A stretch of DNA of 64,000 bases from Aquimarina sp. Aq78 (GTDB lineage Bacteria > Bacteroidota > Bacteroidia > Flavobacteriales > Flavobacteriaceae): positions 1 to 64,000 of the forward strand of contig NZ_OMKA01000020.1 in NCBI RefSeq assembly GCF_900299525.1, in the 5' to 3' direction. This document shows, piece after piece, positions 35,255 to 45,081 of the stretch. Numbering within the stretch: the stretch's first letter is position 1; every line of letters begins with the position of its first letter. The notes beneath the pieces were generated by a model that saw only the letters and a program-made list of their open reading frames with translations, did not search any database and had not been told where the DNA came from. Both the position numbers and the translations under genes were made by a program.

Positions 35255-37597
35255 TTAGTCCCTACTTAATATAAATTCATTTACTCTTCGAATAAAATCC
35301 TGATTACTCGCCTCTGTATTCATTAAAAAGAAATAACCAATGGCTCTTTCTAACTGCATAGAAGTTAATAAATAATTATAATTGGCGGTTGCGCTAGCCA
35401 ATTGTGTTTGTAAATAATTGGTTTGTGCATCAATTAATTGAATAAGCGGTACAGCACCTTCTGCATATGCATTTTGTGTAAGATCTAAACTCTCTCTTGC
35501 AGTTTCTTCTGACACTTTAGATATTTCGATATTGGCAATTTGATTGATCATATCTAATAGAATATCATTTACATTTTTTTCAATAGTCAACTCTACATTT
35601 CCTTTTTGTATCATTAACTGATCTTCTTGAATTTTTGCAGTTTGTCTATTGATATTTCGTTGATTTTGCTTAAAAATAGGCAGCGATACATTTACTCCCA
35701 CATTGTATGTTCCATCTGGTACAGTAGGGATTCCTGCAGGTACTGTAGACCCCTTACCTGATTCTGAAATAGCAAGGCTGTATTTACCTTGTAATGCTAC
35801 TGTAGGAATAAATCGTCCTGTATTGTTTAATCTATAGTTTCTCTGGGTAGCTTCAACATTATAATTTATGTTTTTTAATTCGGGAGCGTTCTTCTTTGCT
35901 TCTTCAACCAAAAAATCAATCAATGCGGGCCTTAGTTTTGGATCATCGAGAATCTCCAAAAAGTCCTCATATTTATAATTCTTAAATAATCCCTGCGATA
36001 TTTCTGCGTCATCAATATCAATTTCTGTTGAAATGGAATTATTCATTAATTGGTTGATCGTATTAAATCCTTGTTGCATTTGATTACCTGCATCAATTAA
36101 ACTCTGAGTGTTTTGTGCCAACTGACTTCTAAAGCGTAATACATCTGATTTTCCGGATTCTCCGGCAGTAAAATTTTGATCTGCCAGCTCCAAATTCTTT
36201 TTGGTGACTTGTAAGTTTTGATTCTGAATCTGTAAATTAGTTTTCAGAATTAAGGCATTAAAATATGCAACCGAAGCATTCAATATTGCATCTAATTCGG
36301 CTGCATTATATGTTTCTTGTTGTGCTTTTTGTAAATTTTCCTGAATAGTAATATTCGCTCCTGCGCTTTCAGAATAAATCACTTGCTCCAGCGCTATATT
36401 TCCCGAGGTTGAAAATTCTGGATTCGAACCATTAGAAATTTCTGCTACTTTAGGATCGAGATATACACCAGTAGCATTGGCTGTCACATTTGGTAAATAG
36501 CTACTTTTTGCCGTTTTTACATCCTGCGTACTCAACTCTATATTTTTTCGTTCTGCATCAAGTGAAAGGTTTTTCTCTACCACCCCATTCATGATATCAA
36601 GAATAGAATAGGAAATATCTGATGTTATTCCGTTCTCTTCTCCAATAAAATCAGCTTTTGCAATAAGACTATAACGCAATGGAAATCCAATCTGTTTTGC
36701 GGTATTGGTATTTATAGAAAGTTTATTTTTGTACTCTACATACATCGGTAGTTTAGATGGGTTTGTACCATTAACTATTGCTTCTACATTAAGAGCAATA
36801 CGTCTAAAAAACTGATCTATATTCGTTTCTGGTTGGTTAGAAGCTAGAACTCCTTTCTCTACATCTTCTTTACTATAAGCAGAAAAGGATGGTATTTTTT
36901 TTGAATTAATAGTAGTAACTAGTTTAGAAAACTCACTATCACTTAAATAAAACCCTGCTGCTATATACACAGCATCTACACCAATTAAATCAGCCTCTAT
37001 ATTCCCTTTATCTTTAAGCGGAATCAATGTATAAGATGATTCTTTTTTAGAAAAATAATCATCAAATAATGCTTTAACCGGCAATACATTAGTGATAACA
37101 TCATCGATTACAATACCCACTTTTTTATACTCATAAAGGGATTGAAAGATCTCTAAATCTTTGGTATAAGAAAAAGGAGTAATGAGATAGGTTATATTAT
37201 CGATCTCAGAGGTTTGCTGCCCTTCGGGTAAGTCATAAAAATCACCATTTACAGATCCAAAAACAATAGTAGGTTTTGGATAGTTTTTTTCCTGATATAC
37301 CACAATAGTATTAACAACTCCAAAAGCCAGAATAATATCGGTATCAGTATCCAAGAGTGTTTGATAGTTTGTTTTTGCTGTAGCAACATTAAATCCATTT
37401 TCTAACACCTCTTTGAAAACAACAGTTGCATCACGCCCCACTACTGATTTAATTTCACTCTGTAGTTTTGCTAATAAAGGTTGGGTCTCTTCTGACGATT
37501 TATCGGCAAGAATACCAATAGATATTGTTTTCGAAGTTTGTGAATACCCCAATATGTTTATGAAAACAAGTAGGAATACTAACTTTAATTTTTTCAT
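35255..37597 (-). CDS. TolC family outer-membrane protein fused to an ABC substrate-binding-like domain
   Basis: The protein has 780 residues, about 330 longer than usual TolC proteins. After a signal peptide (ends GYSQ, about 20), residues about 22-325 read as a TrpX-type (ABC_sub_bind) periplasmic binding domain: SIGILADKSSEETQPLLAKL, TDIILAFG, PTIVFGSVNGDF and KKVGIVIDD. Residues about 330-775 are a TolC efflux protein with the usual long helices (ELSTQDVKTAKSSYLPNVTA, NLELADQNFTAGESGKSDVLR, AYAEGAVPLIQLIDAQTNYL). It is the first component of the pump operon. The extra domain would lie in the periplasm and could present a substrate or sense it; that is an inference. Confidence 0.85.
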   Translation of the reverse strand: MKKLKLVFLLVFINILGYSQTSKTISIGILADKSSEETQPLLAKLQSEIKSVVGRDATVVFKEVLENGFNVATAKTNYQTLLDTDTDIILAFGVVNTIVVYQEKNYPKPTIVFGSVNGDFYDLPEGQQTSEIDNITYLITPFSYTKDLEIFQSLYEYKKVGIVIDDVITNVLPVKALFDDYFSKKESSYTLIPLKDKGNIEADLIGVDAVYIAAGFYLSDSEFSKLVTTINSKKIPSFSAYSKEDVEKGVLASNQPETNIDQFFRRIALNVEAIVNGTNPSKLPMYVEYKNKLSINTNTAKQIGFPLRYSLIAKADFIGEENGITSDISYSILDIMNGVVEKNLSLDAERKNIELSTQDVKTAKSSYLPNVTANATGVYLDPKVAEISNGSNPEFSTSGNIALEQVIYSESAGANITIQENLQKAQQETYNAAELDAILNASVAYFNALILKTNLQIQNQNLQVTKKNLELADQNFTAGESGKSDVLRFRSQLAQNTQSLIDAGNQMQQGFNTINQLMNNSISTEIDIDDAEISQGLFKNYKYEDFLEILDDPKLRPALIDFLVEEAKKNAPELKNINYNVEATQRNYRLNNTGRFIPTVALQGKYSLAISESGKGSTVPAGIPTVPDGTYNVGVNVSLPIFKQNQRNINRQTAKIQEDQLMIQKGNVELTIEKNVNDILLDMINQIANIEISKVSEETARESLDLTQNAYAEGAVPLIQLIDAQTNYLQTQLASATANYNYLLTSMQLERAIGYFFLMNTEASNQDFIRRVNEFILSRD

Positions 37598-37659: not shown

Positions 37660-38070
37660 TTATTTCCAGCCTTTTCTGTTATATACACTAGTAATGATTT
37701 TGCCGAAACTTTCTTTATGTATTTGGTATTGCTCCTTGGTCAGAATTTCTTTAGTCTCATCATTTAGCTGGATTACCATAGCATCAAGTTTTGTTTTTTT
37801 CTCTGCTTCGGTATATCCTTTATCTTTATTTCCTATACGCCCCATTTTATTAGAGTAATACAGGATAATACCATAATAGTCATCTCTTAAATCTTCAGAA
37901 AGCTTCATTTTATCTACCTGTTCTTTAAAAAAGAATTGCAGATTATCTTTTTCACCAGAGGTAAATATTTGTGTTTTATTTTTTTCTCCTTCTTGTTTTT
38001 TCTCTTCTTGTGTTTGTCCGAAGGCAGAAACAGCCACAAGTAGCAGTATTCCAGTGATGGTAATTCTCAT
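37660..38070 (-). CDS. Small secreted protein of unknown family
   Basis: The protein has 136 residues. A clear signal peptide ends VSAFGQ (about 19). The mature part is charged and mostly helical, with KDNLQFFFKEQVDKMKLSEDLRDDYYGIILYYSNKMGRI and ILTKEQYQIHKESFGKII. The alternating K/E helices and the late TKEQY-x-x-H motif resemble small periplasmic Spy/CpxP-like stress proteins seen in Bacteroidetes, but I cannot assign it firmly. It lies 62 bases before the TolC gene and may be co-transcribed with it. Confidence 0.6.
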   Translation of the reverse strand: MRITITGILLLVAVSAFGQTQEEKKQEGEKNKTQIFTSGEKDNLQFFFKEQVDKMKLSEDLRDDYYGIILYYSNKMGRIGNKDKGYTEAEKKTKLDAMVIQLNDETKEILTKEQYQIHKESFGKIITSVYNRKGWK

Positions 38071-38225: not shown

Positions 38226-38987
38226 TTATGAGTTTACCCATTTCTTAAACTCTGTTGCTTTTGCTTTACTTACTACTATGCGTTCTTTTGATACCGGGTT
38301 TATATTTACAATCAACTTACCATTGAAATAATGTTTAATATTAGAGATTGCATTTTTTTGAATTATAAATTGACGATTAACTCTATTAAAATTTTCAGGG
38401 TTTAATTCCTCTTCTATATCCTCAAGTTTCTTGTCTATAATATACATCTTATTTTCGGTAGTGACTGCTTTAACTACTCCTGTATCGATATATAAATAAG
38501 CTATCCCTTCGGTATTAACAGGTATTAATTCATCTCTTTGATGTACCAAATATGTAGTTTTATACGATTTCGTTTTTGCTTGAAGTAGTTGTAACATTCC
38601 GCTCATTTGGGCATTCATAGAGCCATCTTCTCTGGATTTAGTTTTAAATTTTTTCAAAGCTTCTGCCAATTCATCCTCATCTATAGGCTTAAGTAAGTAA
38701 TCTATACTATTCACTTTAAATGCTTTGATAGCATATTGATCATAAGCTGTTGTAAAAATGATTGGTATTTTAATATCTATTTCATCAAAAATTTCAAAAG
38801 AAATTCCATCTGCTAAATGAATATCCATAAAAACTAATTCTGCCTGGTTGGGATCAGAAAAATACTCGATTGCAGATTTCACAGAATCTAAAACTTTTAA
38901 AATCTCAATACCAGGATTGATAGAATTGAGTAAAAAAGTAAGATGATCACTTGCTGCTATTTCGTCTTCTACTAGTACTACTTTCAT
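38226..38987 (-). CDS. LytTR family response regulator
   Basis: The protein has 253 residues. The receiver domain (about 1-120) has the acidic pocket VEDE (about 6-9), phosphoacceptor Asp55 (LVFMDIHLADG) and switch lysine in LLKPIDEDE (about 101-104). The C-terminal LytTR DNA-binding domain (about 150-250) contains EDIEEELNPENFNRVNRQFII. LytTR regulators bind direct repeats spaced by about two helical turns; exactly such repeats lie before three nearby transcription units. It starts five bases after the kinase gene. Confidence 0.93.
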   Translation of the reverse strand: MKVVLVEDEIAASDHLTFLLNSINPGIEILKVLDSVKSAIEYFSDPNQAELVFMDIHLADGISFEIFDEIDIKIPIIFTTAYDQYAIKAFKVNSIDYLLKPIDEDELAEALKKFKTKSREDGSMNAQMSGMLQLLQAKTKSYKTTYLVHQRDELIPVNTEGIAYLYIDTGVVKAVTTENKMYIIDKKLEDIEEELNPENFNRVNRQFIIQKNAISNIKHYFNGKLIVNINPVSKERIVVSKAKATEFKKWVNS

Positions 38988-38992
38988 ATGGT

Positions 38993-40099
38993 TTAACTTA
39001 AAGGTAGTGTTACTCTAAATGCATTATTAGCATTACTAATACTAATGTGTTGTTTTTTTAGCAAAAAATATCGCTTATCCAAGTTCATTAATCCATTACC
39101 GGTACTATCTACAAAAGAGGTTCTTGGTCTAATTATATTCTCTATACAAATAGTTTCTCCTTCAGAAAAAACTTTGACTTTCAAAGGATTATCTTCTGAA
39201 ATCTCATTATGTTTTACCGCATTTTCAACCAATAATTGTAGTGCTAATGGAGGCACCTCTTTTTGTAAATGCATATCCTCTATAGCAATTTCAATCATAA
39301 ACCGATCCCTATATCTGGTTTTTATCAAATGAATATAACTGTCTAAAAATTTAAGTTCTTCTTTCAAGGAAACCAAATCCTTATCTCCACTTTGCAAAAT
39401 ATATCGGTACATAAAAGACAACTTGTTTACAAATGTAGTAGCTTCTTTATTATCGCGAATAATTGAGTTTAAGGAATTCAAAGAGTTAAAAAGGAAATGA
39501 GGGTTAATTTGATTTTTTAATGCTGTTAATTCTTTTTGAAGATTTTGTTGTTTTAGTCTTTCATTTTCTAAAAGATCTTCTTGATGAAGAATCTGATATC
39601 TAAGAATTCTGGCAATAAAAAGAGTTATTAATAAAACAACAAAATAAATAAAATAGATCAATCCTTTCTCGGGCTCAGATAGCGATTCTCCTACGAATAA
39701 AGAATATACATTAATAAATAATTGAACAATTCCTAAAAAAACGATCGCATTAAGAACTATTGTTATACTACTTCTCAATATAATAGAATACCCAGCATAC
39801 TTATTTTTCCAGTTGGCATTTAATTGAAGTATTAAAAATGAAAGTATAAAAATGAAAAGAACACGTATCATGATATCTTTTATAGATACCTGGGTAAAAG
39901 ATTCTATCAATTTATCTGTCAACTCAAATAATGACAACGTCCTTGGCAAGTTAACGAGTACAGAGACAAGCAATGCTATCTTTAAAATTACAGTGTGTTT
40001 AACTTTTTTTAAGCCCAAGATAAATAGTAAAGTTCCTAATTTTTGATTTTTAAATTTACGGAAAATTAAGCTGAAAGAATATTCTAATTTCTGAAACAT
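38993..40099 (-). CDS. LytS/YehU-type sensor histidine kinase
   Basis: The protein has 368 residues. About four membrane helices lie in residues 35-165, then a short coiled coil, then the His_kinase domain with the phosphorylated His near 200 in NQINPHFLFNSLNSLNS. The ATP-binding part has LQLLVENAVKHNEI (N box), with GNGLMNLDKRYFLL as the G box. No extra sensor domain is present, so the signal is probably read within the membrane. It is the partner of the LytTR regulator encoded five bases downstream. Confidence 0.92.
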   Translation of the reverse strand: MFQKLEYSFSLIFRKFKNQKLGTLLFILGLKKVKHTVILKIALLVSVLVNLPRTLSLFELTDKLIESFTQVSIKDIMIRVLFIFILSFLILQLNANWKNKYAGYSIILRSSITIVLNAIVFLGIVQLFINVYSLFVGESLSEPEKGLIYFIYFVVLLITLFIARILRYQILHQEDLLENERLKQQNLQKELTALKNQINPHFLFNSLNSLNSIIRDNKEATTFVNKLSFMYRYILQSGDKDLVSLKEELKFLDSYIHLIKTRYRDRFMIEIAIEDMHLQKEVPPLALQLLVENAVKHNEISEDNPLKVKVFSEGETICIENIIRPRTSFVDSTGNGLMNLDKRYFLLKKQHISISNANNAFRVTLPLS

Positions 40100-40123: not shown

Positions 40124-40158
40124 GAAGAAGCCTCTGTATGGGGATTAGAGGCTTCTTC
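40124..40158 (-). terminator. Terminator between the small-exported-protein operon and the kinase gene
   Basis: Perfect 12-base arms (40124-40135 and 40147-40158; GAAGCCTCT/AGAGGCTTC core) around an 11-base loop. It lies 24 bases after the 40183 gene, so the kinase must have its own promoter or depend on read-through. Confidence 0.75.
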
Positions 40159-40182: not shown

Positions 40183-40512
40183 TTAACTACTATACGGATC
40201 AAAACCCTGAGGTATATATGCCTTCACTTCTACATCATACATAATCTCTTCTTCTTCTCCTACATCATGTATATCAATGGGTTCTATTAGCTTTTCTTTA
40301 ACTGTTCCAAACACATCTTCAAAACTCATCTCAGGTTCTAGCTCTTTTTTTACTAATTCATCGATTTCTTTGTTTAATTCCTCTTTCTGGATAGTTTCTG
40401 TTTTAATTTCTTTACTAAAAGATGTATCGTTTTCTACTTTTTCTTTACCAGAGGTTAATATCATTAATCCTCCTATAAGCATGGCTATTGTTATTATGTT
40501 GGATACTTTCAT
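40183..40512 (-). CDS. Small exported acidic protein of unknown function
   Basis: The protein has 109 residues. One N-terminal hydrophobic segment (about 5-21) is followed by a strongly acidic region (ELNKEIDELVKKELEPEMSFED) and an unusual short tail (YIPQGFDPYSS). The segment lacks a lipobox, so it may be a signal or an anchor. It is the last gene of the unit that starts at 41590, 22 bases after the lipoprotein gene. Confidence 0.6.
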   Translation of the reverse strand: MKVSNIITIAMLIGGLMILTSGKEKVENDTSFSKEIKTETIQKEELNKEIDELVKKELEPEMSFEDVFGTVKEKLIEPIDIHDVGEEEEIMYDVEVKAYIPQGFDPYSS

Positions 40513-40534: not shown

Positions 40535-41191
40535 TTATTGAATAAGCTCTTTTACTATTTTTTTAGAAAAATCTTTGGATGTAGTACTTAAGGTTTCTGG
40601 GTTATCCAAGACTGTGGTAATCACAGAAAGCAATTGTTTTTCTTCGGGTAGAGAAAGATCGTATACGACTGTCTCTAGTATATACTTTTTTCCTAAAGAG
40701 GTCACTGTTGTAATTGGATCTGATTGTACATATACGGTACCATAATATCTATAGAATCCTCCGTAATATCCTCGTCTATAAAATGTTGGATAAGCACTTA
40801 ATTGATATGTAGTGCCTGTTGTGGTAGTTTCTGTATATTCCTGGCAATCTCTTAATACGGTCATTATTACTACATCTATTCCGCTTTTCTTTAGCTTTTC
40901 TTTTATTTCTTTTACTTCATCATCATTCATTTCTTTTGTAGATATTGACTCAGGAAAAATGACAAAGCTTTCTACAGATTGATATCCTTTATAATTAAGA
41001 GTTGATACCATATCTTTTTCAAATCTTGTTCTTGCAACTTCATTGTCTGTTTTACTAACAACCATAATATTTTTTTCTTTGATATCTGTTGTTTTTACAT
41101 CTTTCCAGGAATCTGTAACTTTTACAGCAGAACAACTAAACAAGAGTGTCATTCCCATGGTGATGCCTAATATTTTATTAATTGTTTTCAT
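40535..41191 (-). CDS. Lipoprotein, DUF4136-like
   Basis: The protein has 218 residues. The signal ends in a lipobox (TLLFSC, Cys about 20). SAVKVTDSWKDVKTTDIKEKNIMVV and a later region with GGFYRYYGTVY fit the DUF4136-like lipoproteins of Bacteroidetes, which are linked to the outer membrane. Glycine/tyrosine-rich stretch near 140-155. It lies in an operon of small exported proteins whose promoter carries the 21-base direct repeats. Confidence 0.65.
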   Translation of the reverse strand: MKTINKILGITMGMTLLFSCSAVKVTDSWKDVKTTDIKEKNIMVVSKTDNEVARTRFEKDMVSTLNYKGYQSVESFVIFPESISTKEMNDDEVKEIKEKLKKSGIDVVIMTVLRDCQEYTETTTTGTTYQLSAYPTFYRRGYYGGFYRYYGTVYVQSDPITTVTSLGKKYILETVVYDLSLPEEKQLLSVITTVLDNPETLSTTSKDFSKKIVKELIQ

Positions 41192-41219: not shown

Positions 41220-41357
41220 TTAAATGAATAAAAAGGTGCTTTCATCATTCTCATAGCTGGAGATAAAATCTTTATGATTTTTATACCCTTCATTTTGTAA
41301 AATGCTATTCCAAATCTTTTTTGAAATGTTTCCTAAAATTGATTGTATTGTTTTCAT
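41220..41357 (-). CDS. 45-residue small protein, uncertain
   Basis: An ORF from ATG 41357 to TAA at 41220-41222 starts MKTIQSILGNISKK and ends ENDESTFLFI. It fits neatly between its neighbours (28 and 44 bases), shares the MKTI start of other genes here, and has no signal peptide. I recognise no family. Confidence 0.45.
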   Translation of the reverse strand: MKTIQSILGNISKKIWNSILQNEGYKNHKDFISSYENDESTFLFI

Positions 41358-41401: not shown

Positions 41402-41590
41402 TTAATTTCTAATTGCCATACCTGCGGCAGTACCATATTCTTCTAGTGTATTATACATACTCTTTACCCATACTTTATATCTCTTGGCAAGTACAATCAA
41501 AAAATGAATGGTTCTATTCCTATTTGTTATTGTGTTTGCTGTATATCCACTTCTATGATTGTATACTACTCTTAAATTTGTTGTCTCCAT
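41402..41590 (-). CDS. 62-residue small basic protein, uncertain
   Basis: METTNLRVVYNHRSGYTAN followed by a short hydrophobic stretch (IHFLIVLAKRYKVWV). It is basic and lacks a signal peptide. It is the first open frame after a perfect TACATTTG promoter box with three direct repeats, and its start lies about 50 bases after that box, which supports its being translated. Function is unknown. Confidence 0.5.
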   Translation of the reverse strand: METTNLRVVYNHRSGYTANTITNRNRTIHFLIVLAKRYKVWVKSMYNTLEEYGTAAGMAIRN

Positions 41591-41642: not shown

Positions 41643-41731
41643 CAAATGTACCTCGGGATCAGAGCAGAATTATTGACTTTTTAGGTGAAGCATCCAAAAT
41701 CGAAAGTGAAATAACCCAATAGTACAGTGAG
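41643..41731 (-). promoter_or_regulatory. Promoter A with three 21-base-spaced direct repeats (putative LytTR site)
   Basis: The -7 box TACATTTG is on the minus strand (41643-41650). The forward strand shows TGAA at 41686 and 41707 and TGAG at 41728, exactly 21 bases apart. The nearest repeat lies 35 bases from the -7 box. It drives the 41590-40183 unit. Confidence 0.72.
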
Positions 41732-41800
41732 GTGTTTTTAAGTTGAAGACAAGGTTATTGCGTTTCTTTTTACCATATGATTTCATCATATCAATCCAAT

Positions 41801-41837
41801 AAAAAAGATCCTTAACTGCCAGTTAAGGATCTTTTTT
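41801..41837. terminator. Bidirectional terminator
   Basis: Perfect 17-base arms (41801-41817 and 41821-41837, core AGATCCTTAACT/AGTTAAGGATCT) around a three-base loop, with A and T runs on both sides. It lies 19 bases after the 41857 gene. Confidence 0.88.
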
Positions 41838-41856
41838 ATAAGTAATATTCTTTTTA

Positions 41857-42078
41857 CTACTCATCGGTTTTAAAATCACTTTCATTAGCAATTAATGATA
41901 TTTGGATATCTATATTTGGTTCTGCATAAATATCATTATTCGTATCATTTACTATCTCTTCATATGCATCAGTTGTTACTTCAAAATGAGTATACATTTC
42001 TAAATCATCTTTTATACTTGTTCTTAAAAAAAAGCTTATCAAAATACCGGTTATAATGTATGCGCTTATTGTTCTCAT
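41857..42078 (-). CDS. 73-residue small exported/anchored acidic protein
   Basis: The N-terminal hydrophobic stretch (about 5-18) is followed by an acidic sequence (YEEIVNDTNNDIYAEPNIDI). It forms a one-gene unit: promoter C with three direct repeats upstream and a strong terminator downstream. The clear flanking signals make it likely to be a real gene. No family is recognised. Confidence 0.6.
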   Translation of the reverse strand: MRTISAYIITGILISFFLRTSIKDDLEMYTHFEVTTDAYEEIVNDTNNDIYAEPNIDIQISLIANESDFKTDE

Positions 42079-42117
42079 ATTTTCTAAGTTTTAGATTATC
42101 ATTTCTGATTATAGGAT

Positions 42118-42206
42118 CAAAACTAGTATCCATTTCAAGTCTTTACTCACTGTTTATGAATGAAGTAACCAAAATTAAGAATGAAACATCTATACCCCAA
42201 CCTGAA
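42118..42206 (-). promoter_or_regulatory. Promoter C with three 21-base-spaced direct repeats (putative LytTR site)
   Basis: -7 box TAGTTTTG on the minus strand (42118-42125). TGAA occurs on the forward strand at 42161, 42182 and 42203, each 21 bases apart. The first is 35 bases from the -7 box, as in promoters A and B. Confidence 0.75.
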
Positions 42207-42356
42207 GTGTTTATGGAAATGAGAGTTATTTAAAACCTATGGTTTCTATTTGTGATCAAAAACTACTTTTTTAACCTAAATATGGTTAAGAGATCATCGA
42301 ATGATAATAGAATTAAAATATATATATATTATATCAGTATATAATACATGCCATAC

Positions 42357-42393
42357 AAAAAGCCCCTTGTCTAAATCAACAAAGGGCTTTTTT
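42357..42393 (-). terminator. Terminator after the 42447 gene
   Basis: Fourteen-base arms with one mismatch (AAAAAGCCC.../...GGGCTTTTT) around a short loop. It is followed by T-run on both strands and is probably bidirectional. Confidence 0.8.
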
Positions 42394-42446
42394 AATAAAA
42401 AAACTACATATAAACACCTTACCTCAATCGTCTTTTCTTACTAAAA

Positions 42447-43142
42447 TCATATTTTTCTATCATCATGTCGTTCTCTTCTATCTTCGTGTCTTTCACGATT
42501 GTCTTCTGCCAGTTCTCTTTTTGTGGCTATAATATCCTCATTAAGAGAGTGTACAAATTCTTGAATCAATTTTTTGTTCGCAATTGATTTTTCTATCATT
42601 TCGGGATCAAATGAAAAATTAAATATTTTCAGTTTTCTCAATATGAATGCTTGGCGTTCTGCTCGCGAAATTTGTGCTTTAAAATCTCGGATATCATCTC
42701 TCCTGTCTCTTTTATCATCCCGTTTATTGGCTTGATCCCTTGCCAAATCTCTTTGATCATCATGTCGATCATATCTACCTTTATTACTGTCATTTTTATC
42801 CCTTCGAATCTCTCTTCTATCTGATCTAACTTCTGCCGAGCTTTGAGCAATCTCTATTCTAGCTTGTTTTGCTTTAATCTCACTCTGCTTTACTTCCCTT
42901 ATCATATCGGTAATAATATCTTGTTTCAACTTATTAGCTATTGATGGATCATGGATATCAAAAGCTTTTTTAAAAGCTACTATTTTTAATTGTAAAGCTC
43001 CTAATTCTTTAATATCTCTTTCCAGATTTCTTTTTCCTTCAGCAATTTGCTTTGTGTTTTGAATGGCTTCTTTTGCATTTTGTGCATTAATACTACCACT
43101 TACAAGTAATAGAATTAGCATCAGGTTGTTAATCGTTTTCAT
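42447..43142 (-). CDS. Secreted highly charged (Arg/Asp-rich) protein
   Basis: The protein has 231 residues. The signal peptide ends SGSINAQ (about 21). Residues about 100-150 are almost only D, R, K, H and N (RRDKNDSNKGRYDRHDDQRD), and the C-terminus is again RERHEDRRERHDDRK. The rest is predicted helical. The composition suggests binding to polyanion or a flexible linker; this is an inference. It lies 27 bases after the DUF6515 gene in the same unit from promoter B. No family is recognised. Confidence 0.7.
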   Translation of the reverse strand: MKTINNLMLILLLVSGSINAQNAKEAIQNTKQIAEGKRNLERDIKELGALQLKIVAFKKAFDIHDPSIANKLKQDIITDMIREVKQSEIKAKQARIEIAQSSAEVRSDRREIRRDKNDSNKGRYDRHDDQRDLARDQANKRDDKRDRRDDIRDFKAQISRAERQAFILRKLKIFNFSFDPEMIEKSIANKKLIQEFVHSLNEDIIATKRELAEDNRERHEDRRERHDDRKI

Positions 43143-43169
43143 CGGTTTTATAAGATTTAAAAGTTGTGT

Positions 43170-43823
43170 TTATTTATTTTCGTTATGTACATGAACTACT
43201 TCATAAGCAGTATTACCATCAAAAGTGGATACTCGTTTGTACAATATATCATTGTAGTCATAGAATATTTTACCATCGATTACTACTTCTTCTGCATCTT
43301 CATGAATAGTTCTCAAAAGTGTTCCTACGGGAGGTTGGGTCACTTCATATTTTTGATCATCAGAAGCAGATTCACTAGTATCTGCATAATATACTCCAGA
43401 GTGGTAGTAATATATCGATGGCCCTACAATCACTCGTGTATACCCTACTGGTAAAACGGTTATTCTAAATCCAACCGGAGGTAATACTGTTGCATATACA
43501 TCATTATAAATTGTATAGTAGACCCCTGCATGATAGAAATATGGTAAACCGCGATATACTACACGTACATGATGTCTTGGTAATGTTCTGATAACTCTAT
43601 GATGTCTTGGATATCTGTAATGTGGATTCCTGTGAATAGGTTGTGTTCTGTATCGATCCCCCCTGTAATGATTAGTTCTTACAGATCGCTTGGTATCATA
43701 ATCACGATGAGTACTAGTTCCTCTGTTTCTCTTACCTTCATTTCTTTGTGCCTGAATCGTATCTGTACCTAGAAATGAAACTAGGATCAAAATAATTCCT
43801 GTAATTCTGTATATAGTTTTCAT
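43170..43823 (-). CDS. DUF6515 family secreted protein
   Basis: About 217 residues from ATG 43823 (MKTIYRITGIILIL). The frame is open upstream to 43892, but that part overlaps the promoter. Signal peptide ends DTIQAQ (about 26). An Arg/His/Tyr-rich region follows (RYRTQPIHRNPHYRYPRHH), then the family core with PYFYHAGVYYTIYNDVYATVLPP and YYYHSGVYYADTS. This composition and repeats fit DUF6515, small exported proteins of Bacteroidetes and other groups with unknown function. First gene of the unit from promoter B. Confidence 0.75.
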   Translation of the reverse strand: MKTIYRITGIILILVSFLGTDTIQAQRNEGKRNRGTSTHRDYDTKRSVRTNHYRGDRYRTQPIHRNPHYRYPRHHRVIRTLPRHHVRVVYRGLPYFYHAGVYYTIYNDVYATVLPPVGFRITVLPVGYTRVIVGPSIYYYHSGVYYADTSESASDDQKYEVTQPPVGTLLRTIHEDAEEVVIDGKIFYDYNDILYKRVSTFDGNTAYEVVHVHNENK

Positions 43824-43872
43824 ATGGTCTGTTTTTATAGTAAATGATCTAAATCTCTTGAATATCTTTGTA

Positions 43873-43961
43873 CAAATGTATCTGCAATCCATACGGTTTT
43901 ATGCCAATTATATATTGAAACGGATAAATTTGAAGGTGAACCGAACTAATCTCGAAGTGAA
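43873..43961 (-). promoter_or_regulatory. Promoter B with three 21-base-spaced direct repeats (putative LytTR site)
   Basis: -7 box TACATTTG on the minus strand (43873-43880), about 50 bases before the 43823 start. TGAA on the forward strand at 43916, 43937 and 43958, each 21 bases apart, the first exactly 35 bases from the -7 box. It also sits between this unit and the divergent cyclase gene. Confidence 0.75.
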
Positions 43962-44028: not shown

Positions 44029-45081
44029 ATGAATCCTAAATGGCTAAGCACAGTTTCTACATTTACATTAGGATGGATTATTTCTTCACTTATTTGGGAA
44101 ATCATAAGAGGATTTAGTATTAAATCTCATCTCAGGTTATTAGATATAGAGTTTCCTATATTAACAATACTTCCTGTACTATTATTCATTTCATTATTTG
44201 CAGGAATTACTTTTGGTAGTGTACAATATATTAATGAGCATTCTTTTAGGAAAAAAATGTCTTTTCGCGGAATACTTTTTAGAACTTTGATTATTCATAT
44301 TCTAATAATGTTGGTTATTTATTTATTGGTATATATATCTTTAAGAATAACAGGGTTGGATCCTAATCTATTATTCATTGATTTTTTAAAAAACCCTCTT
44401 ATCATTATTAATCTATTTTACTCAATATTAACCAATAGTATTATTGTAATTACTATACAGATCAATACAATATTAGGAAATGGAAATCTACTAAAATTAG
44501 TTACTGGTAAATTCCATAAACCACGAGAAGAGTTTAGGGTTTTTATGTTTCTGGATCTAAAATCATCTACATCTATTGCCGAAAAATTAGGGCATATCAA
44601 ATACAGTAGATTTATACAAGATTGTTTTTTTGATTTATCAGTTATCGAAAAGTATGAAGCCGAAGTATACCAATATGTAGGTGATGAGGTTGTCTTAACC
44701 TGGAAAGTAAAAAAGAATTATTCTATTGATCACTGTCTGGATGCTTTCTTCGTATTTACTAATCAATTAAAAATAAGATCTGATTACTATCATTCTACCT
44801 ATGGCCGTATTCCTTTTTTTAAAGCAGGAATGGATCTCGGTATGGTAACCGTGGTCGAAGTTGGTTCATTAAAAAGGGAAATAGCATATCATGGGGATAC
44901 GTTAAATATTGCTGCCAGAATCCAGGAGCAATGCAAAGTTTTTGATAAAGCAATCTTAGTCTCTGGTGCTATTTATGAATATGTACATCAAGTGCCAAAG
45001 TACGAATATGAAAAGATGAGAGAAACAACATTAAGAGGTAAAAAAAATTCGACTTCTATTTTTAGTGTCTCAAAAAAGTAA
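44029..45081 (+). CDS. Membrane-bound class III adenylate/guanylate cyclase-like protein
   Basis: The protein has 350 residues. Four membrane helices (about 7-27, 43-65, 85-105 and 122-145) precede the catalytic domain (about 165-345). Metal-binding Asp is in VFMFLDLKSSTSIAE (about 175), the second in YVGDEVVLTW, and YHGDTLNIAARIQ matches the G-D-x-x-N-x-A-A-R-x-Q signature that binds substrate and transition state. Whether it makes cAMP or cGMP I cannot tell. It is divergent from the DUF6515 unit. Confidence 0.85.
   Translation: MNPKWLSTVSTFTLGWIISSLIWEIIRGFSIKSHLRLLDIEFPILTILPVLLFISLFAGITFGSVQYINEHSFRKKMSFRGILFRTLIIHILIMLVIYLLVYISLRITGLDPNLLFIDFLKNPLIIINLFYSILTNSIIVITIQINTILGNGNLLKLVTGKFHKPREEFRVFMFLDLKSSTSIAEKLGHIKYSRFIQDCFFDLSVIEKYEAEVYQYVGDEVVLTWKVKKNYSIDHCLDAFFVFTNQLKIRSDYYHSTYGRIPFFKAGMDLGMVTVVEVGSLKREIAYHGDTLNIAARIQEQCKVFDKAILVSGAIYEYVHQVPKYEYEKMRETTLRGKKNSTSIFSVSKK

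Follow-up and report, generated by a model that had tools for sequence, protein, structure and literature searches.

LytTR regulators recognize direct repeats spaced by about two helical turns; YpdB, for example, binds two copies of GGCATTTCAT (PMC4847170), and three such repeats are described for CoxC, which requires all of them, and for RcoM1 (PMC11347149). We analyzed a 64,000-nucleotide stretch of Aquimarina sp. Aq78 (contig NZ_OMKA01000020.1, positions 1 to 64,000), hereafter the window, which encodes a LytS-type histidine kinase (38993-40099) and a LytTR response regulator (38226-38987) beside three promoters, A, B and C, that carry triple direct repeats. The arrangement resembles that of RcoM and CoxC, in which a LytTR domain is likewise associated with three evenly spaced direct repeats about two helical turns apart (PMC11347149). 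In contrast, RcoM and CoxC are CO-responsive one-component regulators rather than response regulators, and their sites, TTCNNGCA or TTNNNGCN, are not matched by the consensus of the half-sites described below, (A/G)GnCGTTTCACTT. A sensor fused to the LytTR domain, which is a PAS domain in RcoM and an MHYT domain in CoxC, is absent from the regulator at 38226-38987, which has a receiver domain. The window instead holds a two-component system with a half-site around CGTTTCACTT, a fixed distance of 34-36 nt to a TAnnTTTG box, and other targets. YpdA/YpdB of Escherichia coli is also a LytS/LytTR pair, and its direct repeat GGCATTTCAT agrees with GTCGTTTCAC at 7 of 10 letters by hand alignment (PMC4847170), but it has two sites and responds to pyruvate, whereas the system described here has three sites, several promoters and a Bacteroidota promoter context.

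Domain matches support the assignment of the two proteins, both of which are encoded on the minus strand. The 253-aa regulator, our proposed DNA-binding activator, matches PF00072 (E 4e-12) and PF04397 (E 1e-20), which bears out the original prediction of a LytTR regulator at this position, and the 368-aa membrane kinase matches PF06580 (E 7e-26). The locus therefore combines the features of a LytS/LytTR system, namely a regulator with receiver and LytTR domains, a PF06580 kinase, and direct repeats stepped by about 20-22 bp before the target promoters. All three promoters lie on the minus strand, which is the coding strand of the target genes, and on this strand the repeats read TTCA, except for the outermost copy of promoter A, which is CTCA. 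Within each promoter the repeats are stepped by exactly 21 bp, and exactly 35 nt separate the nearest repeat from a TAnnTTTG box. Promoter A (41643-41731) consists of CTCA at 41728-41731, TTCA at 41707-41710 and 41686-41689, and the box TACATTTG at 41643-41650; promoter C (42118-42206) of TTCA at 42203-42206, 42182-42185 and 42161-42164, and the box TAGTTTTG at 42118-42125; and promoter B (43873-43961) of TTCA at 43958-43961, 43937-43940 and 43916-43919, and the box TACATTTG at 43873-43880. On re-reading the sequence, the positions, 21-base steps, 35-base gap and boxes all agreed with those originally proposed. The motif given at the time, TGAA, proved to be only the core: over 69 distinct promoters the two inner half-sites are longer, both with the rough consensus (A/G)GnCGTTTCACTT. 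No conserved -33 element was found across these 69 promoters, and much of the sequence between repeats is unconserved, while the repeats and their phase are kept.

Short patterns were not distinctive within the genome of Aq78. Three exact TTCA at this spacing occur at nine sites in its 5.97 Mb, two of which lie in the window, and two TTCA with TAnnTTTG at gaps of 31-39 occur at ten sites, three of which lie here, compared with six for the pattern read backwards. Because such counts are weak as evidence, we used relatives of the locus and built a promoter profile. A search with the kinase yielded at least 80 loci, which comprised 46 with closer kinase relatives (L020-L065, including Aquimarina, Arenibacter, Winogradskyella, Maribacter, Algibacter and Tenacibaculum) and a contrast set of 34 with distant kinases (L066-L099). 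With a site defined as three TTCA at no more than two mismatches, 34-36 nt before TAnnTTTG, we found 71 sites in 43 of the 46 closer loci and three sites in three of the 34 distant loci, although some of the 71, e.g., L056:4617 and L049:9707, resemble chance matches. When the phase was varied across the 46 loci, 21 bp gave the 71 sites, and phases of 15-20 and 22-27 gave 0-5. Variation of the spacer gave 11 sites at 34 nt, 58 at 35 nt and two at 36 nt, and displaced spacers tried three at a time gave 0, 1, 0, 1 and 3 sites, with 18 at 55-57 nt, a distance that corresponds to a shift by one repeat. Lesser spacer peaks at 14 nt (13 matches) and 56 nt (14 matches) are consistent with these arrays read one repeat out of step and suggest a fourth copy in some of them. 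In 41 of the 46 loci, the kinase has a site with at most three mismatches on its own strand, no more than 2.2 kb upstream; the interval mostly contains 1-4 called genes, with none called in three loci and an opposite-strand ORF intervening in two. Conservation of the repeats beside orthologous kinases, which the original prediction had proposed as a check, is thus evident in 43 of the 46 loci, with phase 21 standing alone, and it provides good support for the view that the repeats have the properties expected of sites for the adjacent LytTR system.

We also assessed how the promoter is distributed using R1, a sequence-only profile built from 56 promoters, among them the three of the window. 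In the genome of Aq78, R1 scored 74.5, 59.9 and 51.9 bits at promoters A, B and C, and the next best score was 15.6 bits (150 of 9173 first-look candidates scored). The genome-wide search suggested with the original prediction, performed here with the profile, therefore returned three strong matches, all at this locus, which is good support for a predicted regulon confined to this locus and to three promoters. The same genome contains 65 LytTR domains over the Pfam cut-off, and three strong matches in such a background indicate that the site is specific to one locus. We then surveyed 299 genomes of the family at E ≤1e-4, with at most 12 candidates scored per genome, such that site numbers per genome are lower bounds. 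R1 matched 43 of these genomes and 37 of the 236 family genera sampled among well-assembled genomes. A kinase search in the 299 genomes separated orthologues (E ≤1e-60, 35 genomes) from paralogues (E about 5e-55 and weaker), and an R1 match was present in all 35 genomes with an orthologue versus 8 of the 264 others. When 30 of these 35 genomes were set against the training loci, six proved near-identical and the other 24 (one at 93% identity) did not, and a site with at most two mismatches was found in all 24. In a sample of 395 genomes spread across the phylum, R1 matched 20, of which 11 lie outside the family with weaker scores (E 4e-7 to 8e-5).

Based on these findings, we consider it very likely that the regulator at 38226-38987 activates the three promoters through the triple repeat. 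The kinase and regulator would form a two-component system in which the active regulator binds three head-to-tail half-sites of the consensus above, two helical turns apart, probably with one protomer per half-site and on one face of the DNA. Bound in this way, at about -50, -71 and -92, it would bring RNA polymerase to a promoter in which the Bacteroidota -7 box TAnnTTTG is present and a conserved -33 element is lacking. Promoter B would drive the genes for a DUF6515 protein and an Arg/Asp-rich protein, promoter C the gene for a 73-aa protein, and promoter A the genes for a 62-aa protein, a peptide ending in -LFI, a PelC-like lipoprotein and a 109-aa exported protein. Transcription from promoter A would also pass a weakly terminating hairpin into the kinase and regulator genes, which would constitute positive autoregulation. 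This hairpin (40124-40158, minus strand) lies between the genes for the 109-aa protein and the kinase; the segment 40110-40170 folds at -20.5 kcal/mol (z -4.8), and only a weak T run follows, as in a possible partial terminator. Because the hairpin before the kinase is strong but its T run is weak, we infer partial read-through and, with it, likely autoregulation of the kinase/regulator operon, a point absent from the original prediction. In relatives, too, the regulator would usually activate its own operon. A simple terminator scan picked neither this hairpin nor the two others in the window described below.

The direction of regulation was considered in light of promoter geometry. In Flavobacterium psychrophilum, TAnnTTTG occupies positions -12 to -5 (PMC9723704). 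Counted in this way, the half-sites begin near -51, -72 and -93 and would lie upstream of RNA polymerase; this placement, taken with the lack of a -33 element, favors activation. The regulator could instead repress, as CoxC does from its triple repeat (PMC11347149). The CoxC operator overlaps -35, however, whereas here the nearest repeat lies 35 nt before the -7 box and there is no -33 element, as activation predicts, so we regard repression as improbable. Slightly less improbable, though still unlikely, is that another regulator, either a different LytTR protein or one of the AraC type, binds the repeats and that their linkage to the pair reflects co-regulation within an operon. Such a regulator could be found among the 65 LytTR domains of the genome, two family genomes (G032 and G248) have good sites without an adjoining pair, and the operon of the pair itself lies behind promoter A. 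Set against this are the co-occurrence of site and kinase orthologue (35/35 versus 8/264), the presence, in four of the eight exceptions, of a divergent LytTR regulator no more than 3 kb from the site, the second genome of the same genus (G177), in which neither an orthologous kinase nor an R1 site was found, and the 21-bp direct repeats, which are typical of LytTR sites (PMC4847170, PMC11347149). A structural or chance origin of the repeats with no specific binder, such as phased A/T composition or a recent promoter duplication, seems to us very remote. The three promoters lie within 2.3 kb and could be copies of one another, but the repeats and their phase are kept where much of the sequence between them is not, the same design occurs in other genera and, with weaker scores, outside the family in 11 of the 20 phylum-sample matches, and the phase and spacer scans disfavor this explanation.

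Several observations weigh against activation by the adjacent regulator and against the role that we attach to it. Three of the 46 closer loci (L028, which spans only 6 kb, L036 and L055) have no site at up to two mismatches, and the Fisher p of 3e-38 for the co-occurrence overstates the evidence because genomes of one family are not independent. The eight genomes that have an R1 match and no kinase orthologue are mixed. Four have the divergent LytTR regulator mentioned above (36-43% identical), which in G049, G127 and G143 belongs to a divergent LytS/LytTR pair within 3 kb of the site and in G057 is accompanied by a kinase called as a fragment only. In G032 and G248, the good site that lacks an adjoining pair precedes a small exported protein or lipoprotein, and G032 has a paralogous kinase about 4.6 kb from the site. 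The matches in G128 and G221 resemble chance. Within Aq78 itself, one of the 64 other LytTR domains may cross-bind the repeats. Finally, the envelope role discussed below draws on gene neighbors and predicted export, and a helical protein of the neighborhood (37660-38070) has no solved-fold match (Foldseek, E ≤0.001). A resemblance of this protein to Spy/CpxP was considered and dropped, as solved-structure sequences also gave only two unrelated chance-level matches (E about 0.2).

The genes downstream of the conserved sites include a class of short ORFs with a shared C-terminus. ORFs of 25-80 aa were collected from the 600 nt that follow each site (up to two mismatches) in 83 sequences, which comprise the window and 82 loci, a few of them overlapping. 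An exact LFI C-terminus was present in 29 of 165 short ORFs behind sites (25 distinct) versus 9 of 5354 elsewhere. The carriers are the ORF at 41220-41357 of the window and short ORFs in relatives (among L020-L061, L175, L181, L186, L189 and L190). Thirteen of the 25 distinct ORFs belong to the window and other Aquimarina and are mutually homologous, and several of those outside Aquimarina have little in common apart from a run of acidic residues and the final three positions. The -LFI class, together with the non-coding units that follow the same promoter in relatives, extends the predicted regulon beyond that originally proposed.

These non-coding units became apparent because 45 of 136 distinct sites have no called ORF within 130 nt, although some of these are ORF-calling errors, as at promoter B itself. 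In several genomes, the site is followed by a short ORF-less stretch that ends in a terminator, and one type of candidate small RNA (sRNA) of about 125-150 nt recurs in G017, G246, G145 (Algibacter onchidii) and G169. Its core, ...CATAT(G/A)GTTAGTTTGGTTAG, is nearly invariant in 23 copies, and 5 of the 13 pairs of the terminator stem show changes on both sides. A search for the core pattern found ten copies in G246, seven in G145, six in G017 and five in G169, and none in Aq78 or G238. With R2, a covariance model of the candidate sRNA for which at most 11 candidates were scored per genome, we obtained 30 matches of at least 65 bits across the same four genomes (5-11 copies per genome, with at least 11 in G246) and no match in Aq78 at E 0.001. 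The triple repeat and box lie directly upstream of 26 of the 29 matches checked (no more than 3 of 18 letters off, versus at least 5 at control positions; one G246 match was outside this check), an association that is largely circular because 23 of the 29 had entered the training set on account of their promoter. Among the six non-training matches, three have the promoter, one of them already seen through it, and three do not. The copy at G145:C12:1631 lies 30 nt behind an ORF in a 3'-UTR position, that at G169:C56:1302 is directly behind another sRNA copy, and that at G169:C56:429 is a promoter-less copy without explanation. Two weaker matches (54 and 53 bits, in G248 and at G169:C70) begin near the stop codons of lipoprotein ORFs, and the ORF in G248 is itself preceded by a triple site, which suggests that some copies may be 3'-UTR-derived.

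The 4227 Rfam models gave no match at gathering in seven loci and the window, and at E ≤1 in three loci they gave two weak matches, neither on the candidate sRNA. A reading of the core as a small ORF that starts from CATATG was rejected by eye, as several copies read CATATA and the frames end differently. Long antisense targets were likewise rejected, since a search for a 26-nt complement with up to three mismatches gave 28 matches in four of six genomes, all of them at sRNA copies. The core is complementary to translation starts that resemble ACTAACC-AT-ATGAAAA, and we evaluated this pairing in two 400-kb samples of G145 (268 and 344 genes from a simple ORF caller) against 60 dinucleotide-shuffled cores. 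The ten best start duplexes reached -19.4 versus -17.3 for shuffled cores in the first sample (sd 0.7; 0/60 as low) and -19.0 versus -17.9 in the second (sd 0.7; 3/60 as low). The top pairing starts, named by eye, include those of a SusC-like receptor, a glycosidase and a uronate isomerase. Enrichment of exported proteins among the best-pairing starts was absent in one sample (p 0.18) and weak in the other (p 0.02), and there was none in either sample when only the upstream-pairing part of the core was used (p 0.32 and 0.18). We regard start-region targets of the candidate sRNA as a lead rather than a result. The loci with multi-copy candidate sRNAs behind triple-repeat promoters are L167, L168, L170, L173, L174, L179 and L180. 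In addition, four and three tandem promoters within about 1 kb, in L177 (6500-7620; G109) and L182 (5690-6600; G237), respectively, precede short non-coding units of other sequence types.

Regulatory RNAs under comparable control are known. AgrA of Staphylococcus aureus is a LytTR response regulator that drives RNAIII beside its own operon, a likeness that extends only to the relatives with candidate sRNAs; agr has one RNAIII, whereas these relatives have a short candidate sRNA in several copies and Aq78 yielded none. The CpxAR/CpxQ and sigma-E systems of enterobacteria combine exported proteins of an envelope regulon with sRNAs, some of them in 3'-UTRs. The relatives described here similarly join exported proteins to candidate sRNAs, some in a 3'-UTR position, but the regulator is unrelated, the envelope role is only a proposal here, and no Spy/CpxP fold was matched. 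The LytTR pair, the triple operators of RcoM and CoxC, and the LytTR-driven RNA of agr are thus known parts. In the open-licence literature, we found no description of this motif, regulon or sRNA in Bacteroidota, nor of the operator of any Bacteroidota LytTR regulator, and none of the half-site, fixed geometry, target set, -LFI class or multi-copy candidate sRNAs. Tentatively, and with less confidence than in activation itself, we suggest that a LytS/LytTR triple-operator system of Flavobacteriaceae runs exported proteins, -LFI proteins and, in some lineages, batteries of near-identical sRNAs whose core, CAUAUGGUUAGUUUGGUUAG, would pair with translation starts of other mRNAs; the system would then be the counterpart, in Bacteroidota, of the Cpx/sigma-E sRNA response. 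Part of this suggestion is that the invariant C-terminal -LFI would mark proteins for a PDZ protease or act as a degron or a signal peptide. The sharp, conserved promoter model makes one LytTR regulon predictable from sequence and ties it to genes of little-known function, and if the sRNA copies and -LFI peptides are true outputs, they open RNA- and peptide-based regulation to direct tests in the phylum.

The predicted targets in the window agree with the seven genes first proposed, which mostly look exported and include a lipoprotein, a DUF6515 protein and an Arg/Asp-rich protein; all are on the minus strand, and homologues were sought in the 82 loci. Promoter A is followed by the gene for the 62-aa protein (41402-41590; homologues in 14 loci), then that for the 45-aa peptide ending in -FLFI (41220-41357), whose class is the one enriched behind these promoters, and that for the 218-aa lipoprotein (40535-41191). 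The AF2 model of the lipoprotein (mean pLDDT 79) resembles PelC/GNA1162, with a Foldseek match to PelC at E 1e-6 (probability 1.00; TM 0.47 by query and 0.63 by target; rmsd 9.6), which suggests a fold like that of outer-membrane lipoproteins of this type. The last gene before the kinase (40183-40512) encodes the 109-aa small exported protein, which ends in a (Y/L)xPxGFDPY element and belongs to a family usually encoded in this position, with 25 homologues in 25 loci and up to five element repeats in Arenibacter. Family members carry 1-5 repeats of about 32 aa with YLPxGFxxY (window 40183-40512; L043:9064-9783; L060:6665-7381), and the family is a candidate feedback ligand of the kinase. Promoter C precedes the gene for the 73-aa protein (41857-42078), which has one hydrophobic N-terminal segment and homologues in four loci, all Aquimarina; a terminator-like hairpin follows at 41799-41839 (fold of 41785-41845, -23.1 kcal/mol, z -7.4). 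Promoter B precedes the gene for the exported DUF6515 protein (43170-43823; PF20125, E 8.5e-29). The longest ORF for this protein starts at 43892, upstream of the box at 43873-43880, so the real start is probably the ATG at 43823, which gives 217 aa. The second gene of the unit encodes the exported Arg/Asp-rich protein (42447-43142; 231 aa; homologues in 15 loci), and a terminator-like hairpin follows the unit at 42357-42392 (fold of 42345-42405, -22.3 kcal/mol, z -4.8). Neither the 109-aa nor the 231-aa protein has a Pfam or NCBIfam family.

A gene for a DegP-like protease neighbors the locus (TIGR02037, E 1e-61, below the family cut-off). The exported-looking targets, the PelC-like model and the DegP-like, TolC and HlyD neighbors are consistent with a role in envelope homeostasis, which we only infer. 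In the same neighborhood, a 780-aa protein (35255-37597) has a TolC-type outer membrane efflux domain and an ABC_sub_bind-like match (24.8 bits, cut-off 25.9); its gene adjoins the HlyD gene, and in L020 also an ORF that resembles an RND transporter by eye. Divergent from promoter B, 44029-45081 encodes a membrane protein with a class III adenylate/guanylate cyclase domain, and ORFs similar to this gene sit near promoter B in L020 and L022.

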